From contig JAFRAH010000038.1 in the NCBI GenBank assembly GCA_017405525.1, positions 1 through 64,000 of the forward strand: a DNA stretch of 64,000 bases, in the 5' to 3' direction. Positions 42,893 through 59,705 of the stretch are shown one piece after another. The stretch is from Synergistaceae bacterium. Lineage in GTDB: Bacteria > Synergistota > Synergistia > Synergistales > Aminobacteriaceae. The notes beneath the pieces were generated by a model. That model was not told where the DNA came from, did not search any database, and saw nothing but the letters and a program-made list of their open reading frames with translations. Numbering within the stretch: the stretch's first letter is position 1; each line of letters begins with the position of its first letter. The translations under genes were made by a program, and so were the position numbers.

Positions 42893-44698
42893 ATGAAGAA
42901 ATACTCTGTACTTATTGCGCTCGCTATGATGCTTTCGGGAGCCTTGTGTGCTCATGCTGACGTTGGGATTAACCCGGACAACTTCCCTGATGAGGTCTTC
43001 GGGCCTTACCTCTTCACCTTCGACACTGACGGGGACGGCTCACTTAGTGATGCTGAGATTGCGGCGATCACTGATCTGGATATTCAGAGCAGGGGCATAA
43101 AGTCATTGGAGGGCATCAGGTACTTGACCAGCCTGAAGACGCTCGATTGCTCGTACAATATCATAACCAGCCTTGACGTTCACGGACTGACACAGCTTGA
43201 GAGTTTACGTTGTGGCGGGAATAACATTCAGAGCCTCAAAGCCTACGACTGCACAGCCCTGACGGCGATTGTCATTGACGGCAACCCATTGGGCTCAACT
43301 GACCTTCACGGTTGCACCGCGCTTACTGGCCTTAGCTGGCGGGAGAAGGGGATAACCGGGACGATTGACCTTCACGGATGCACTGCCCTCGTGAGCTTGA
43401 GCTGCCGGGAGAACACTATAACCAGCCTCGATGTTCATGGCTGTACGGCACTGACGGAGATTTGGTGCAGGAGCAACCAGCTTGTCGAACTCAACATTAC
43501 GGGGTGCAGTGCCCTTGTGGCTCTGAGTTGCCAGACCAGTTCGTCATCAGGGACTGACCACACTAACCACATAACCACGCTCGACCTTTCAGGGAAAAGC
43601 AGCCTTCGGGAGCTTTGGTGTGGACGCAACGGGATTACTGCCCTTGACCTCGCGGACTGCGTGGCCCTCGTGAGCTTGGACTGTTGCCGTAATCAGCTTG
43701 CCTCTCTGAACGTAGCTAGCTGTACTTCGCTTGAACACTTGGTCTGTGGGAGCAACGACATAAAGAGCCTGGACGTTACGCACAATACTGCGCTGACTCA
43801 CCTTGATGCTTGGGACTGCGGCCTCTCTGTAATTGACGTGTCGAAGAATATAAACCTTGAGTATTTGGAGCTTGGAGGGGAAACTGCGCACGTAAACACT
43901 CATAACCGCCTAACTACAATTGACGTGAGCAAAAACACAAAGCTGAAGTATTTTGCTGTAGACTGTAACCTTCTGACCGAGCTTGACGTTAGCAACCTCC
44001 CATTGCTGGAACAGCTCATGTTTCAGTACAACAACATCACAAGCATTGACCTCACCCACAACCCTGCACTGAGGGAGCTTTACTGCCATAGTAGCCACAT
44101 GACCAAGCTAGACCTGAGTACGAACACAGCACTAACTCTTCTCCGTTGTTACAGCAACGACATAGCAACCCTAGACCTCAGCCACAACCCCCTAATCTCC
44201 GACGTGGGGACATCAGGACTTAGTACAGAGCTCGCCAAACTGACGGTAATATATTCCCCTGGGACAATGCCATACCATACCGACATGAGGGACTACACCG
44301 GCAATGACTACACCGCCATAACCAGCGTCAAGGGCTACACATCAACAGGCTACGAGATACAGACATCGTTTGCGTCGGATGGCACGGCAAGTTTCCTGGC
44401 TCTCCCGGTCAAGGTCATCTACACCTACAGCACCGGCTATACTGGCTCGGCAGACATTGACGCAAGCCTTAAGGTTTCACTCATTCCTGACCCGGAAAAC
44501 TTCTTCTCGCCCCTCGTCTCAAGGGAAGTAGTAACGTCATCCATCGTTTCACGTGAGACCGTTACCGTTGTGTCGCGGGAGGTTGTTGTGTCCCATGAGG
44601 TCGAGTATGTCTCTACAGGAAGCAGTGGAGGTTGCAACAACGTATTCACGCCGATAATCATTGCAGTTTTTGCGGCATTCATATTCAGCAAGCGTTAA
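42893..44698 (+). CDS. Secreted leucine-rich repeat protein with Synergist-CTERM-like tail
   Basis: From the ATG at 42893 (GGGAGGAAC upstream) the product is 601 residues. It has a signal peptide (YSVLIALAMMLSGALCAHA), a calcium-loop-like FDTDGDGSLSDAEI, then about 17 leucine-rich repeats of 21-23 residues with the pattern L-x-C-x-x-N-x-I-T-x-L-D-V-x-x-C-T-A-L, a beta-domain (residues about 440-540), a low-complexity Val-Ser-Arg-Glu segment and the C-terminal sorting tail STGSSGGCNNVFTPIIIAVF followed by AAFIFSKR. Gly-Gly-Cys-Asn plus hydrophobic plus basic is the Synergist-CTERM arrangement, so the protein is probably anchored or processed at the surface. It likely binds host or microbial partners. 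Confidence 0.88.
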   Translation: MKKYSVLIALAMMLSGALCAHADVGINPDNFPDEVFGPYLFTFDTDGDGSLSDAEIAAITDLDIQSRGIKSLEGIRYLTSLKTLDCSYNIITSLDVHGLTQLESLRCGGNNIQSLKAYDCTALTAIVIDGNPLGSTDLHGCTALTGLSWREKGITGTIDLHGCTALVSLSCRENTITSLDVHGCTALTEIWCRSNQLVELNITGCSALVALSCQTSSSSGTDHTNHITTLDLSGKSSLRELWCGRNGITALDLADCVALVSLDCCRNQLASLNVASCTSLEHLVCGSNDIKSLDVTHNTALTHLDAWDCGLSVIDVSKNINLEYLELGGETAHVNTHNRLTTIDVSKNTKLKYFAVDCNLLTELDVSNLPLLEQLMFQYNNITSIDLTHNPALRELYCHSSHMTKLDLSTNTALTLLRCYSNDIATLDLSHNPLISDVGTSGLSTELAKLTVIYSPGTMPYHTDMRDYTGNDYTAITSVKGYTSTGYEIQTSFASDGTASFLALPVKVIYTYSTGYTGSADIDASLKVSLIPDPENFFSPLVSREVVTSSIVSRETVTVVSREVVVSHEVEYVSTGSSGGCNNVFTPIIIAVFAAFIFSKR

Positions 44699-48072: not shown

Positions 48073-48501
48073 ATGAAGACGACAAAGAAAATCACAGCGG
48101 CACTCATGGCAATAACAGCAGGAAGCGTTTTCTTGGGAGCAATGCCCGCAAAGGCAGGAGGTATAGAGCTCGACAGGGTAGATATAACGTTCAGACGGGA
48201 CAATGACAGCTCATATAGCGATTACGGAGGGTACTACGGAAGGCAGGAAAGGGACATGCCGCCGCCTCCCCCTCCCGGAAGAGATCACGGAGGCCCTAGA
48301 GGACACAGGCCGCCCCCTCCAGACAGAGGCCCCGGAGGACACTGGGACAGACCACCTCACGGAGGACCCAGAGCAGGAGGACCCGGACCAGGTGGCCCCA
48401 GACCAGAAGGCCCTAGACCCGGAGGCCCCGGCCCAAGAGAGCCACAAAGACCCGGACCAGGTGGACCCGGACCAAGAGGACCAAGAGGCCCACGCCCGTA
48501 A
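48073..48501 (+). CDS. Exported Gly/Pro/Arg-rich low-complexity protein
   Basis: I do not recognise a family. The 142-residue protein has a clear Sec signal peptide (MKTTKKITAALMAITAGSVF then cleavage near AMPAKAG). About 30 ordinary residues (IELDRVDITFRRDNDSSYSD) follow, then a tail made almost only of Gly, Pro and Arg, with GGPRPEGPRPGGPGP-type units. Such a tail is disordered and basic and could bind LPS, nucleic acid or peptidoglycan. AAGGAGG precedes the ATG. It is the first of three consecutive genes divergent from the two-component system. Frame is supported by the signal peptide. Confidence 0.75.
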   Translation: MKTTKKITAALMAITAGSVFLGAMPAKAGGIELDRVDITFRRDNDSSYSDYGGYYGRQERDMPPPPPPGRDHGGPRGHRPPPPDRGPGGHWDRPPHGGPRAGGPGPGGPRPEGPRPGGPGPREPQRPGPGGPGPRGPRGPRP

Positions 48502-53228: not shown

Positions 53229-54179
53229 ATGCCGGGAAAACTTCAGCCTGACGTACTGCGCTCCAACGTCCTGGACTTCACGGGTGCATTGCGTGATGAC
53301 TTGCTTGTTGGCGGTGGTATCGGTGAGGACGCCGCACTAATCCGCGTGCCTGACGGAATACTTGTTGCTGCCTCTGACCCTGTTACCGGCGCGGATAAGA
53401 ACGCAGGAAGCCTCCTCGTCCACATTAATGCCAACGATGTAGCCTGCAAGGGAGCAGATCCTTCATGGCTCATAGTTACGCTGATTGTCCCTGACAGTAT
53501 GGGAGCGTCATACATTGCCGGGGTAATGCGGGAGATTCACGAGACCTGCGAACGTATGAACATAGCCATAGCCGGAGGACATACGGAGCTCACTGACAGG
53601 TACGAACAGCCAGTGATTTCCGGGACTATGCTGGGGATTACGAGGCACGAGCTCAGCACGAGGAAGATACGCGAGGGGGACATAATACTTGCTACGGGAC
53701 ATTCAGGGCTTGAGGGTATGAGCATAATCGCCAACGACAGGCCGGATCTCTTCACCGGGATATTCACGCCTGAAGAGATGGGCACGATACGTTCATGGGG
53801 CGGTGATTTGTCGGTTGTTGAGCCCGCAAGAATCCTCCGTGATTTTGCACGCTACATGCATGACCCAACGGAAGGCGGTATCAATGGTGCACTGTACGAG
53901 ATGCAGGAAGGGAGCACCTTCGGGATTGAGCTTTACCGTGAGAGCATACCAGTATCACCGCTGACACTGAGGGCTGCTGACTCACTAGGCTTTGATCCGT
54001 TCAACCTCATATCATCGGGAATGTTAATCGCCGTAATCCCGCCGGATAAAGTCCGGGACGCTCAAGCCATTCTTGAGGCTCATGGGATAACTTCCGGGGT
54101 AATAGGCAGGTTCATTGACGGGGAGAAGTTGACACTGAGCACTCACGAAGAACTGTGGGGGATATTGTCGCGTGTATAA
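53229..54179 (+). CDS. AIR synthase-related protein (HypE/ThiL-like)
   Basis: The 316-residue protein has the PurM-like ATP-binding fold: [74 protein letters not shown] and [13 protein letters not shown], close to HypE and to a family of uncharacterised AIR-synthase relatives. HypE makes the cyanide ligand of NiFe-hydrogenase but has a C-terminal Cys, which is absent here (the end is [14 protein letters not shown]). So a different ATP-dependent step is likely. It lies 1 base after the binding protein, suggesting a link with the imported cofactor. Confidence 0.82.
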
Positions 54180-54180
54180 T
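54175..54180 (+). promoter_or_regulatory. -10 hexamer before aspS
   Basis: TATAAT preceded by GTG lies 49 bases before the aspS start, inside the last codons of the HypE-like gene. It has no convincing -35. Confidence 0.4.
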
Positions 54181-54229
54181 ATGCAGGATTGACACAGCAA
54201 TATTCACGAAGGAGAAGTGTAAAAACTTT

Positions 54230-56029
54230 ATGGCAAGGATATTCAACAAGGACTGGCAGAGGACGAAACTATGCGGCCAGTTCACTGAGGAAGACGCGGG
54301 GCATGAGGTCAGGGCTAACGGCTGGGTTCGTGCACGTCGTGATTTGGGCGGAATAATCTTCATTGAGGTGTGGGACTGGTCAGGGCCGATTCAGGTGGTC
54401 TTCAACCCGGAGGCAGGAGAGATTCACGAGCAGGCCGGGCGTTTGAGGAATGAGTATTGCGTTGCTGTACAGGGAAAGATGCGTATTCGTCCCGAAGGAA
54501 CAGAGAACCCTGAGCTCAAGACGGGTAACATTGAGATTGTGGCAAGTGATTTCCTCGTGATGTCGAGAGCCAAGCCATTGCCCTTTGAGGTTGGGGATGA
54601 GACAGAGAACGTTGACGAGAACATACGCCTGAAATACCGATACCTTGACATGCGCCGCGAGAAGATGCAGTACAACATGAGGACTCGTGCGAAGATCAAC
54701 TCATTCACGAGGCGTTACCTTGAGGAGCGCGATTTTGTGGAGCTTGAGACACCGATGCTCACGAAGGCAACTCCAGAAGGTGCACGTGATTATCTTGTTC
54801 CCTCACGAGTGAATCAGGGATGCTTCTATGCACTGCCACAGTCCCCCCAGCTCTTCAAGCAGATACTCATGATTTCGGGTTTCGACCGCTACTACCAGAT
54901 AGCCCGGTGCTTCAGGGATGAGGATTTGCGCGCTGACCGTCAGCCTGAGTTCACGCAGGTGGATATTGAGATGAGCTACATAGTTGAGGACGACATAATG
55001 ACGCTCATTGAGGGCTACATGAAGGGACTGTTCCGGGAGATTAGGGGTGTTGACATTCCCACACCGTTTATGCGCATGTCTTACTGGGACGCAATGGACA
55101 AGTACGGGAGCGACAAGCCTGACCTCCGGGTAAAGCTCGAACTCTGCGACTTGGCTGATGCATTCAGGGATTCGGGGTTTGAGCCGTTCAGGAAGATACT
55201 TGAGTCCGGCGGAGTAGTGAGGGGCTTGCGTTTACCGGGTGGTGCGTCAATGTCCCGCAAAGAGATCATGGACTTGGAGGCGCGCGCGATAAAGCTCGGA
55301 ACATCAGGGCTCGCGAACTTCCTCTACAAGGAGGGTGGGCTCAAGGGGCCGCTGGTGAAATTCCTGAAGCCTGAAGAAGTCGACAAGGTCAGGGAACTCG
55401 GCAAGATGGAGCCTGATGATGCGTTGTTCATAGTAGCCCACAACTCCCGCGCAAAAGCCTGCGAGATTCTCGGAACGTTACGCCTTGAACTGGGCAAGAA
55501 ACGTCCTGAACTGTTCGATGACTCGCCGGATAACTGGAAGTTCCTGTGGGTAACGAAATTCCCGCTGTTCGAGTGGAGTCAGGAGGAGAAACGCTGGGAG
55601 GCCATGCACCACCCGTTCACGTCGCCTGCGCTGGACAATGATACTGCGTTCGACGAGGACCCCGAACACGCATTAGCCCGTGCGTATGACTGCGTGCTTA
55701 ACGGCAACGAGGTAGGCGGCGGCTCAATCAGGATACATGACCCGGACATACAGGCGCGGCTGTTCAAGTGCTTGGGAATTACTCCCGAAGAGGCAAAGCG
55801 TAGGTTCGGGTTCTTCCTTGAGGCACTCTCATACGGGACTCCTCCTCATGGCGGACTTGCTCTCGGTGTTGACAGGCTGGTGATGCTGCTCTGCGGGGGG
55901 AACTCGATACGTGATGTTATGGCGTTCCCGAAGACCCAGAAGGCTCAGTGCTTGATGTCGGGTGCTCCTGACTCTGTGGAGCAGGAACGGCTTGACGAGC
56001 TGGCAATAAGCGTAGTGAAGGACGAATAA
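54230..56029 (+). CDS. aspS: Aspartyl-tRNA synthetase
   Basis: The 599-residue class II synthetase has an OB-fold anticodon-binding domain ([23 protein letters not shown]), motif 1 ([27 protein letters not shown]), motif 2 ([29 protein letters not shown]), the bacterial insertion domain (GAD) and motif 3 ([13 protein letters not shown]). The chosen ATG follows GGAG by 15 bases, longer than usual; the upstream in-frame start at 54155 would lie inside the preceding gene. The bacterial type may be discriminating or not; no gatCAB is in the window. Confidence 0.96.
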
Positions 56030-56039
56030 CGATACTAAC

Positions 56040-56075
56040 TCCCCTCTGTGATTGAAGGCAGGGGGGATTTTCTTT
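56040..56075 (+). terminator. Rho-independent terminator after aspS
   Basis: TCCCCTCTG (56040-56048) pairs with CAGGGGGGA (56059-56067), followed by TTTTCTTT. The same stem sequence recurs at 59846-59872 and, slightly altered, at 61807-61832. Confidence 0.85.
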
Positions 56076-56079
56076 GTGG

Positions 56080-56085
56080 TATAAT
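56080..56085 (+). promoter_or_regulatory. -10 hexamer of glycan cassette
   Basis: TATAAT preceded by GTGG lies just after the aspS terminator and 170 bases before the GT2 start. A start near 56092 would give a leader that contains the short open frame and the heptad repeats. No strong -35 is visible, as it would overlap the terminator. Confidence 0.45.
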
Positions 56086-56119
56086 CTGCAAAATCCAAGT
56101 AATAAGGAGGTTGACAGGG

Positions 56120-56191
56120 TTGAAATTGCGTGCGTATAACGTTCGCAGTTCGCAGTTCGCAGTTCGCAGTTCGCAGTTCGCAGTAGCTTAG
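56120..56191 (+). CDS. Leader open frame spanning heptad repeats (23 residues)
   Basis: AAGGAGG (56104-56110) is placed 9 bases before a TTG at 56120, which opens a 23-codon frame running through the six 7-base repeats (coding VRSSQFA per three units) to TAG at 56189. Because 7 is not a multiple of 3, adding one repeat (or losing two) would move translation into a frame that stays open until TGA at 56251, overlapping the GT2 ATG as ATGA. It could be a true leader peptide or coincidence; there is no homology to judge by. Confidence 0.4.
   Translation: MKLRAYNVRSSQFAVRSSQFAVA
56141..56182 (+). repeat. Tandem 7-bp repeat, six perfect units (GTTCGCA)
   Basis: Six identical copies of GTTCGCA stand head to tail, followed by the partial unit GT. 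They lie in the leader between the aspS terminator and the glycan cassette. Confidence 0.97.
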
Positions 56192-56249
56192 TCTGTCCAT
56201 TTTTCCCATCACAATTGACCCGTAACGAAACCTTCAGGAGTAATTTATC

Positions 56250-57017
56250 ATGAAGGCTGTGTTTAGCAGTGTCTCAATATTGATTCCTGCAATGGATGAG
56301 ACATATTCGCTTTCACAGACGGTTGACGTTATCGCCGGGACCTGTAGTCCTGAAGACATAGCCGAAATCATAATAATCATCTCGCCAGAAAAGACTTCCC
56401 CTGAAACAGTCAGGACAGCTCAGGAACTTATCACGAAATATTCAGGCCTCATCAAAATATACATTCACGGGCAGACCTTGCCATTTGCAGGGGGGGCGGT
56501 GCGCAACGGGATAAAGCTCGCGCAGGGCTCTCATCTTGTAATGATGTCAGCAGACCTTGAGACAGACCCGGAACTGATTCACGAGTTCATAGCACAGTCA
56601 AAGAAGTACCCTGACAGGATAATCACTGCCTCACGCTGGAAGAAGGGCGGGAGCTTCAAAGGCTACAGCAGGATCAAGCTGCTCTGCAATTACGTGTTCG
56701 AGAAGGCCATAGCATGGTTCTATTTCTCCGGGCTAAGTGATATGACGTTCGGATACAGGCTATTTCCGACTGAGCTCATGAAGTCCATCAAGTGGGAGGA
56801 ACTTAAGCATCCGTTCTTCCTTGAGACGGCACTAAAGCCCCTGAGATTAGGCGTGAAGTTCGTTGAGATTCCGGCGAAATGGGAGGCCCGTACTGAGGGG
56901 GTATCGCAGAACGGGTTTTTCGCGAACTTCATGTATTTCGGGACGGCTTGGCGTAACAGGTTCTTGAGGCCTGAAGATATTTTGCTGAACTATGGAGGGG
57001 AAAACAATGAACGCTAA
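56250..57017 (+). CDS. GT2 family glycosyltransferase (polyprenyl-phosphate sugar synthase-like)
   Basis: The 255-residue protein has the GT-A fold of dolichol-phosphate mannose synthase-type enzymes: VSILIPAMDETYSL, GGAVRNGIKLAQGSHLVMMSADLETDPE with the metal-binding acidic residues, ITASRWKKGG and LSDMTFGYRLFP. It probably makes a lipid-phosphate-linked sugar in the cytoplasm, though it lacks C-terminal membrane helices. CAGGAG precedes the ATG. It is first of three overlapping genes that behave as one operon behind the heptad repeat. Confidence 0.88.
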   Translation: MKAVFSSVSILIPAMDETYSLSQTVDVIAGTCSPEDIAEIIIIISPEKTSPETVRTAQELITKYSGLIKIYIHGQTLPFAGGAVRNGIKLAQGSHLVMMSADLETDPELIHEFIAQSKKYPDRIITASRWKKGGSFKGYSRIKLLCNYVFEKAIAWFYFSGLSDMTFGYRLFPTELMKSIKWEELKHPFFLETALKPLRLGVKFVEIPAKWEARTEGVSQNGFFANFMYFGTAWRNRFLRPEDILLNYGGENNER

Positions 57018-58509
57018 ACTTACTATGACGCAGAAACTTGCCTATATCCTGAGCCTTCTGGCAGTACTTGGGCTGTTTGCGGTAACGGGTTTCCAGTCAT
57101 GGGGGTACGACGACGAGATATATAGTTTCAGGCTTGTGGAGAACTCAAACTCAATCTCAGAAGTCATAGCCAAAGCAAACAGTACAGACATTCACCCCGC
57201 AGGAATGTACATAATAAACTATGTGCTGCTAAAGATATTAGGGAACTGGCACCTCGTTAAAGCGGCAAGTGCACTCTTTGCGGCTTCGTTTATATGGTTT
57301 TTCTGGTACGTCATGACCCGGGACATGAAGAGCTTGTTTGCCCTGATATTCTCGTATATAGCTGTATGCCTCAATCCTACTTTGCTCTTATGGTGTACAA
57401 GCGTAAGGTGGTATACCTACTTTACTCCGCTGGTGTGCGTGATAGCGGTTTTACTTTACAAGGCTGAAGACACAAGACTAAACAGCACTTTATTCTGGGG
57501 AATATATTTTCTGACATGTGTGATCATGTTTCACCTCAACTACATATCAGCAATCATTATTCCAGTTTCGTTTATCTGCATGTTGTACAGGAGAAGAAAC
57601 AGCCTTCAACGTGAATGGAAATGCATTACTCTTTACGCTCTTTTCTCTGTATGTCTTGTCGCATATCAGGCATATGTACTGCTTACGGTACATTACGCAA
57701 ATTCCCACAAGGGATTCTTACCTCCTTTCAGGCTTAGTATTGGGGCGGGGCAAAATTTTCTTTGCGGGCAGGCAGTCGTACCAGTTTCTGCATACGGGAT
57801 TATTCTGATAGCAGCAAACATCATCCTGTTCATTGTCTTCTTGAAGAACATCCTTAAAACATGCAGGAATTGTGATAATAATTTCCTTATACTCTCATAT
57901 GTAGCCATGATGCTTATATTTCCGGGCAATTCCACATCATCAGGCGCAAGGAATTTTTCTGTTCTTTCACCTGAAATGGGTATATTCCTCTCGAATGTTT
58001 TTCAGGAGATAAGGCACAAAAGCATAAAGATATTTATCCTCCTTGCTTATGCCATAGGGACAGCGGGTGGGATATATAACGTACTGACACATACAGATAC
58101 ATCAAAGGCTACGTACAATATGCCGTATAAAGAGATCATTGATTACGCCGAAACACTTGACCCTGAAAGGCAGGCCATGTTCATAACAGATTTTTCCGAC
58201 TTGGATTACCATGTAAAAAAGAAATATAACAATGTAACTTATGTAGGACGCGGTGCTTCCAAAAACTGGGACAAGCCGCTCAGCAGTTGGAGGGGCAGGA
58301 TAATCGCCGTCAGGACTCATCAGGTTGCAGACAATTATGACAAGTATCTTCAGTATCTTTCACGTGTCGTAAACGGGGAGGCCGGTACTCTGATAAGCAG
58401 GCATGAGATCGGCAAAGACGGATTTGCCTGGTTCAAGCGGATAATCAACAAAGATTACCCTGATTATTATGCGCAGGTCTACTTCATAGACAACGGAGGC
58501 ACTGAATGA
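57007..58509 (+). CDS. Polytopic GT-C-like glycosyltransferase
   Basis: The 500-residue protein has about 11-12 membrane helices and a first loop with the acidic motif FQSWGYDDEIYSFRLVE followed by NSTDIHPAGMYIINYVLL, the pattern of lipid-phosphosugar-dependent GT-C enzymes such as ArnT or protein mannosyltransferases. The C-terminal 120 residues form a soluble domain (ITDFSDLDYHVKKKYNNVTYVG). ATG at 57007 has GGAGGGG just before it; ATG 56992 is in frame but lacks one. It overlaps GT2 by 11 bases and the next gene by 4. By eye it is more AT-rich than its neighbours, hinting at acquisition. Likely acceptor: a surface glycan or lipid. Confidence 0.78.
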   Translation: MNAKLTMTQKLAYILSLLAVLGLFAVTGFQSWGYDDEIYSFRLVENSNSISEVIAKANSTDIHPAGMYIINYVLLKILGNWHLVKAASALFAASFIWFFWYVMTRDMKSLFALIFSYIAVCLNPTLLLWCTSVRWYTYFTPLVCVIAVLLYKAEDTRLNSTLFWGIYFLTCVIMFHLNYISAIIIPVSFICMLYRRRNSLQREWKCITLYALFSVCLVAYQAYVLLTVHYANSHKGFLPPFRLSIGAGQNFLCGQAVVPVSAYGIILIAANIILFIVFLKNILKTCRNCDNNFLILSYVAMMLIFPGNSTSSGARNFSVLSPEMGIFLSNVFQEIRHKSIKIFILLAYAIGTAGGIYNVLTHTDTSKATYNMPYKEIIDYAETLDPERQAMFITDFSDLDYHVKKKYNNVTYVGRGASKNWDKPLSSWRGRIIAVRTHQVADNYDKYLQYLSRVVNGEAGTLISRHEIGKDGFAWFKRIINKDYPDYYAQVYFIDNGGTE

Positions 58510-59705
58510 GATTCCTTATACTCGGAGCAGGCCCGGCAGGCCTAACGTTCGCTAACTGCCTCAAGCGCAAGGGCATTCATGACTTCCTGCTGCTCGAAGC
58601 CGAACACGACCCCGGAGGACTCTGCCGCTCAATTCATGTTGACGGCTCGGCACTCGACATCGGCGGCGGGCATATCCTCGACGTTCGGAGGCCGGAAGTC
58701 GTGAGATTCCTGTTCGGGTTCATGCCGCGGGAGGAGTGGAACTACTTTGTTCGCGACACGACAATACACGTCAGCGGAAAATTCATATCCCACCCGTTCG
58801 AGGCCAACCTATGGCAGTTCGACACGTCAAGGCAGGTCGAATACCTTTCCTCAATCGCTAGGGCAGGATGCGTTACGGGACAGCCTGAGCCCGAAAAGTT
58901 CACCGACTGGATCACCTGGAAGCTCGGTGATAAGATCGCCAATGACTACATGATACCCTACAACACCAAGATGTTCGGTCATGAACTGCCCAATCTCGGA
59001 ACTTACTGGCTCAACAAGCTCCCTGATGTCAGCTTTGAGGACACCCTCAGATCATGCCTTGACCATCAGGCTTACGCGAAACAGCCCGGTCATGCCGAGT
59101 TCTATTACCCCGTTGAGCATGGCTATGGCGAAATGTGGCGGAGAATGGCAGATGCTCTTGACGGCAGGATACTCTACGGGCAGCATGTTGACGCAATCGA
59201 CTTTGACTCCCACACCGTAAGGACGGCAGAAGGCGGCGAATACCACGGAAGCATCATCATCAACACGATACCTTGGCGGGAGTTCAGGGAACTTCACGGG
59301 ATGCCCGAAACCCTTAAGGACTCAATACCACGCCTCAAGCATACAAGCGTTCAGGTGAAATACATTCCCCATGACATGGACACAAAGGCACACTGGATAT
59401 ATTACCCGGATTTGAGCCTCAGCTATCACAGGATATTTCTGCGTCATAACGTACTTCTTGGGAGCAAAGGAGTATGGACAGAGACCAACGCAGACAGGAT
59501 AGAGCCACCTGACGGGAATTTCTCCTACATGAACAAGTATGCTTATCCCCTCAACACGATAGGGAAGCCTGAAATCATGAGCTCACTTCTTGGGTGGTGC
59601 AGGGGAAAGGACGTTCACGGCTTGGGACGCTGGGGGGAACATGAACACTACAACTCTGATTTGACCGTAGAGCTGGCCATGAAGCTGGCTGATACACTGG
59701 CATAA
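58506..59705 (+). CDS. FAD-dependent oxidoreductase related to UDP-galactopyranose mutase
   Basis: The 399-residue protein opens with a dinucleotide-binding GAGPAGLTFANCL, then EHDPGGLCRSIHVDG and a GGGH segment (ALDIGGGHILDV), and ends with GLGRWGEHEHYNSD, which resembles the FAD-binding C-terminal motif of UDP-galactopyranose mutase and related amine-oxidase-fold proteins. It may convert a sugar-nucleotide or oxidise a precursor for the two transferases upstream. ATGA overlap with the GT-C-like gene; a terminator pair follows. A true mutase would need Arg and Tyr residues that I could not place. Confidence 0.8.
   Translation: MRFLILGAGPAGLTFANCLKRKGIHDFLLLEAEHDPGGLCRSIHVDGSALDIGGGHILDVRRPEVVRFLFGFMPREEWNYFVRDTTIHVSGKFISHPFEANLWQFDTSRQVEYLSSIARAGCVTGQPEPEKFTDWITWKLGDKIANDYMIPYNTKMFGHELPNLGTYWLNKLPDVSFEDTLRSCLDHQAYAKQPGHAEFYYPVEHGYGEMWRRMADALDGRILYGQHVDAIDFDSHTVRTAEGGEYHGSIIINTIPWREFRELHGMPETLKDSIPRLKHTSVQVKYIPHDMDTKAHWIYYPDLSLSYHRIFLRHNVLLGSKGVWTETNADRIEPPDGNFSYMNKYAYPLNTIGKPEIMSSLLGWCRGKDVHGLGRWGEHEHYNSDLTVELAMKLADTLA

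Follow-up and report, generated by a model that had tools for sequence, protein, structure and literature searches.

A heptanucleotide array in a short leader frame as a candidate phase-variation module before glycan cassettes in a Synergistaceae genus

The window (the whole stretch of DNA that was analysed, 64,000 nucleotides) carries a perfect heptanucleotide array inside a short leader reading frame, located between a tRNA synthetase gene and a glycan cassette. We take the upstream gene to be aspS from recognition of its sequence, and the membrane protein encoded second in the cassette is presumably glycosyltransferase-like, as judged by inspection. The features of the locus are as follows.

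54155-56029, forward strand: aspS, aspartyl-tRNA synthetase, the upstream gene (from the ORF list, where the frame probably opens before the true start)
56040-56067, forward strand: hairpin resembling an intrinsic terminator, ending the aspS transcript (terminator scan)
56077-56085, forward strand: P1, extended -10 promoter-like sequence TGGTATAAT (read directly), the predicted transcript of which would carry the leader start
56104-56110, forward strand: leader Shine-Dalgarno AAGGAGG (read directly; motif common to the sibling copies)
56111-56140, forward strand: P2, sigma70-like TTGACA-N18-TATAAC inside the leader (TTGACA 56111-56116, TATAAC 56135-56140)
56120-56191, forward strand: leader ORF in its OFF phase, TTG start at 56120, 23 codons, TAG at 56189-56191 (read directly, frames computed)
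56141-56184, forward strand: heptanucleotide array (GTTCGCA)6 plus GT, six full units at 56141-56182 (Tandem Repeats Finder)
56183-56198, forward strand: conserved tail GTAGCTTAGTCTGTCC, where TAG 56184-56186 and TAG 56189-56191 stop two frames and the third is open
56236-56240, forward strand: Shine-Dalgarno AGGAG of the GT2 gene itself (read directly)
56250-56253, forward strand: ATGA, the GT2 start codon over the ON-phase leader stop TGA 56251-56253 (frame computation)
56250-57017, forward strand: GT2-family glycosyltransferase, cassette gene 1 (Pfam PF00535, E 4e-11)
56992-58509, forward strand: polytopic membrane protein, cassette gene 2 (ORF list; no Pfam match)
58506-59705, forward strand: FAD/NAD-binding oxidoreductase of the amino-oxidase fold, cassette gene 3 (Pfam PF01593 and PF13450)

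Tandem Repeats Finder describes the array as (GTTCGCA)6.3 with 100% matches and a score of 88. Only a diverged 66-bp repeat, at 43300, scores higher in the window, and of its perfect arrays the one made of six GTTCGCA units alone exceeds 3.3 copies. A pattern of 14 bases of the unit, searched with up to 3 mismatches, returned the array copies and only one other site, at 3 mismatches; across the whole 2.17-Mb genome a 21-mer of the array is confined to this place, and its reversed control gave 0 matches. Two other tandem repeats of the window, the diverged 66-bp unit (1.9 copies, 43300-43423) and a 15-bp unit (4.6 copies, 48361-48429), are found without heptamer or leader.

Seven bases are two codons plus one base, so that any gain or loss of a unit changes the frame of the leader. 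With six units, as assembled, the copy in the window is in the OFF phase; one unit more or two fewer (seven or four) put it into the ON frame, which is open to the TGA at 56251-56253 overlapping the ATG of GT2 at 56250, and two units more (eight) lead to an immediate TAG. A preliminary description of this DNA had already placed six perfect 7-bp units in a 23-codon TTG leader and had stated that seven or four units would open the frame to the ATGA of GT2; Tandem Repeats Finder, direct reading and frame computation all agree with it, its coordinates being right to the base. P1, P2, the hairpin behind aspS and the recurrence of the module in the genus had escaped it. With a unit length not divisible by three, at a site where expression could change, the array bears a mark of SSR contingency loci.

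The arrangement is not peculiar to the window. In Synergistaceae genomes of the same genus the module recurs 50-60 times with a constant order of parts: AAGGAGG, a start codon, TTGACA-N17/18-TATAAT, the heptamer array, and stops in two frames. A pattern made of the leader only matched 48 times in 43 genomes of the genus, versus 1 match for the reversed control, and its only match elsewhere in the order and phylum was a stray one; the stricter pattern of leader plus array had 0 matches in the other genera of the phylum, and none was found in the viral contigs searched. Arrays found independently of the leader tell the same: as read from the flanks in related genomes, all those with the left flank present have GGAGG, a start codon and a TTGACA-N17/18-TATAAT-like pair before them, and behind most of them comes GTAGCTTAGTCTGTCC or a variant of it. 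It should be noted that some module loci are related and so not fully independent, and that copy numbers come from draft metagenome assemblies with one genome per species. Several assemblies break inside arrays (genome G017 at contig C43, G033 at C91 and C138, G010 at C7 and C11), and the true lengths of such arrays may be longer than assembled. The source genome itself has three copies of the module.

Window, forward strand: copy 1, (GTTCGCA)6 before GT2
Contig C9, position 137864: copy 2, two units, recA upstream and a GT4-type gene downstream
Contig C7, position 77510: copy 3, (GCTCACA)5 before a methyltransferase-like gene

Comparison of the copies bears on whether the leader is read by ribosomes. 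In 49 of 55 the triplet that lies 14 nt beyond the first base of GGAGG is NTG (19 TTG, 15 ATG and 15 GTG); over all 55 the second base is T in 51 and the third is G in 52, while the first is mixed. The frame set by this triplet is open up to the array in 49 of 49 cases, the other two frames in only 18 and 7. Taken together, a free first base, fixed T and G and openness specific to one frame constitute the signature of a start codon, and frame-dependent translation of the leader is thereby strongly supported at the level of sequence. The repeats lie in a leader ORF with an upstream GGAGG and a start codon of its own (49 of 49 NTG frames), as in the pil1 type of switch considered below.

The downstream end of the layout is equally ordered. 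In translational coupling by stop/start overlap (ATGA) the stop codon of an upstream frame overlaps the start codon of the downstream one. Such overlap has served as a coupling criterion (PMC3711429), and in our set the stop of the leader frame falls on or next to the downstream start codon, in a single phase only, at 38 of the 50 loci with a downstream gene (-4 to +13 nt). Shuffling the tails with the gene start kept gives an expectation of 17.7 (P ~5e-13); starts were picked by Shine-Dalgarno and ATG preference, ignoring the leader. When each of 19 protein families is represented by one locus, the median is 13 versus 5.7 expected, with a median P of 2e-5 and a worst one of 5e-4. ATGA is the commonest stop/start geometry among the loci. 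A control with other genes (closure in 45/136, or 17/89 excluding a long upstream ORF) is weak because it contains many real operon overlaps, and tail shuffles were used instead. Inspection by eye, which stays outside the P value, suggests that five of the 12 misses (L188, L192, L196, L257, L258) are miscalled starts and three (L191, L252, L202) direct in-frame fusions of leader and gene. At these three loci the leader frame can enter a membrane protein directly, which may represent either a forerunner of the switch or something derived from it.

To come into the coupled frame, 10, 14 and 12 of the assembled loci would have to gain 0, 1 and 2 units, respectively (10 ON, 14 and 12 OFF), an even spread that is expected if arrays wander freely among phases. 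Twelve different heptamer units occur among the loci, and the period is 7 in every case. All 12 lack a stop codon; as this has a probability of about 10% by chance, we do not take it as evidence of selection.

Copy number also varies between related genomes, as contingency loci do. A comparison of this kind had been proposed at the outset, and the count indeed differs: the orthologous aspS-GT2 locus has 6 units in the window (OFF) and 7 in the genome of another species, G032 (ON), where the same aspS protein end, SVVKDE, precedes the array and the proteins are 74% identical. Other homologous loci differ both in number and in unit (GTTCGCA x8 in L211, a GCAGTCA-type unit in L268). In genomes G010 and G033 an array stands before an epimerase gene ahead of GT2, at contig ends.

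Behind the modules we find GT2 and GT4 glycosyltransferases, radical-SAM proteins, methyltransferases, cytidylyltransferases, TupA-like ATP-grasp proteins, DUF1919, sugar-nucleotide genes and polytopic membrane proteins without a Pfam match; with few exceptions these types belong to the usual repertoire of surface polysaccharide synthesis. Directly 3' of recA the module stands before glycan genes that differ between species (GT4, GT4, cytidylyltransferase and methyltransferase in L270, L190, L210 and L211), and the site looks like a docking point for glycan cassettes.

These elements could work together in the following way. A transcript from upstream, started at P1 or arriving by read-through, would carry the short leader ORF, and ribosomes translating it would read through the 7-bp array. 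Slippage, by gain or loss of units, would move the leader on by one frame at a time. Two of the phases would end translation shortly behind the array, some 60 nt before the glycan gene begins; in the third the ribosome would reach the stop overlapping the start codon of that gene (ATGA), where termination coupled to initiation of GT2 and the cassette would raise translation of the latter. The module, its frames and their arithmetic, its recurrence, the frame-bound conservation of the start codon and the differing copy numbers between species are read from sequence, whereas we infer that units slip within populations, that the leader is translated (with strong comparative backing) and that coupling is what alters expression. 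We regard it as quite probable that the window holds one copy of a genus-wide phase-variation module acting through leader frame and stop/start coupling, and these gut bacteria probably flip their surface sugars on and off at random. The core idea of the preliminary description, that repeat number decides between an early leader stop and a run to the start of GT2, draws support from the recurrence at dozens of loci, the excess over the shuffle null and the 6 versus 7 units at the orthologous locus. GT2 and most downstream genes have a Shine-Dalgarno of their own, with a predicted accessibility no lower than that of control genes (means 0.28 and 0.31, p 0.27). Coupling therefore cannot be argued from structure, and RNA structure hiding the Shine-Dalgarno of the gene was rejected on the same accessibility.

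The frame switch might instead be real and act on transcription, if the untranslated stretch of the OFF phase let Rho or an attenuator terminate the transcript and ribosomes of the ON phase protected it. The evidence for leader translation would fit equally well, and the same leader anatomy acts in this way at pil1 of S. gallolyticus. However, no intrinsic terminator was found in the tails of the module loci tested or between array and GT2 in the window, which argues against an attenuation mechanism of the pil1 type, and attenuation by an intrinsic terminator was rejected. Moreover, the untranslated stretch of about 40-90 nt is short for Rho, and the pil1 model does not predict a long frame ending exactly at the start codon, with ATGA as the commonest geometry. 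We consider this reading unlikely, though it survives better than the other alternatives.

The main difficulty lies with P2. This near-consensus promoter sits between the leader start codon and the array, which it adjoins, and a P2-like promoter is conserved in the window and all siblings (L178-L214, L251-L270); P2-like hexamers with 17-18 nt spacing are also present in module copies that were found by the array alone. The automated promoter scan did not list P2, as its -10 hexamer ends in C. Because of its position, a P2 transcript would begin in the repeats without the leader start codon, and such leaderless transcripts could dampen the switch; in the leader-switch model the conservation of P2 is left unexplained. 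As for P1, about half of 55 module copies show a clear TGnTATAAT sequence at a distance of 25-28 nt ahead of GGAGG, and a clear P1 is absent from about one fifth up to about half of them. One might suppose that the heptamer number tunes P2 or its transcript start independently of frame, as heptamers act at the promoters of hmw1A/hmw2A, and the TTGACA-N17/18-TATAAT pair directly before the array, also where no promoter was searched for, would suit this. Pure promoter tuning fails, however, to account for the conservation of the frame: the 49 of 49 open NTG frames, the stops in two frames and a third frame ending at the gene start would all be left unexplained, and at three loci leader and gene are directly fused. 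We consider this explanation very unlikely.

Still more improbable is a neutral dispersed repeat family inserted in intergenic space: TAACTGA arrays are abundant in Beggiatoaceae and the same GTTCGCA arrays are widespread outside Synergistaceae, in Gemmatimonadaceae, Acidobacteria, Chloroflexi and others (loci L063-L177), but there the leader accompanies 0 of 85 arrays versus 17 of 18 in Synergistaceae, where the modules do not vary in orientation, gene class or frame design, and the unit sequence differs from array to array at a fixed period. One Gemmatimonadaceae genome (JAICOJ) has dozens of GTTCGCA arrays. A chance origin of the array was rejected in view of the recurrence of the module and the reversed-pattern controls.

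Returning to the frame switch with stop/start coupling, we incline, with less assurance than for the module itself, to a broader picture of a modular switch found in a single Synergistaceae genus only, in which a slippage-prone decoy leader ORF is joined to a stop/start overlap before each of many distinct glycan cassettes. Period (7 bp) and frame layout would be preserved by selection as the sequence of the repeats turns over, and each cell would have a combinatorial surface-sugar state. If true, the module would be a portable random switch: any gene starting with ATGA behind it would become phase-variable with its protein unchanged. Repeat number modulo 3 would give a simple read-out: long-read metagenomes could reveal the surface state of uncultured gut bacteria and allow a direct test of selection for particular states by host or phage. 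In the literature searched we found no account of SSR phase variation in Synergistota.

Among known systems, heptamers before a surface gene are found at hmw1A/hmw2A of Haemophilus influenzae, where they modulate transcription from the promoter region (PMC2651432) and no leader frame is involved. The intergenic TAACTGA heptamers of Beggiatoaceae and others (PMC4679880) are likewise dispersed arrays near gene starts; their unit, however, contains stop codons and lies at the RBS, with no glycan bias and no conserved leader. In neuO of E. coli K1, slippage of the heptamer AAGACTC switches a glycan-modifying gene by frame (PMC13001214), which our module resembles in heptanucleotide slippage, glycan gene and use of the reading frame. 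The neuO repeats, however, are inside the coding sequence of the gene, whereas the array of the window belongs to a separate leader with an ON frame that ends at 56253 unfused to GT2; only L191, L252 and L202 look like fusions. Where ordinary coupling has a functional gene upstream, the module has a decoy frame prone to slippage.

The nearest precedent is the pil1 leader of S. gallolyticus, where, as at pil3, repeats in a leader peptide drive phase variation (Danne et al. 2014, PMC3894217). Both systems have repeats not divisible by 3 in a leader ORF with its own RBS before a surface operon, and at pil1 gain or loss of repeats makes the leader short (low expression) or long (high). The pil1 repeat is the pentamer GCAGA, and the long leader opens a premature terminator (PMC3894217); here we see many heptamer sequences, no terminator and a long frame ending on the start codon. 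The preliminary description had supposed phase variation by heptanucleotide repeats through a leader peptide to be new. This claim has to be narrowed, as SSR phase variation by leader peptide is known from pil1, by attenuation (PMC3894217), and heptamer switching from neuO (PMC13001214) and hmw1A/hmw2A (PMC2651432). What stands is the combination: none of pil1, neuO and hmw1A/hmw2A joins a decoy leader to a stop/start overlap, and none is a module reused on this scale, with two pilus loci in S. gallolyticus versus dozens of loci here.
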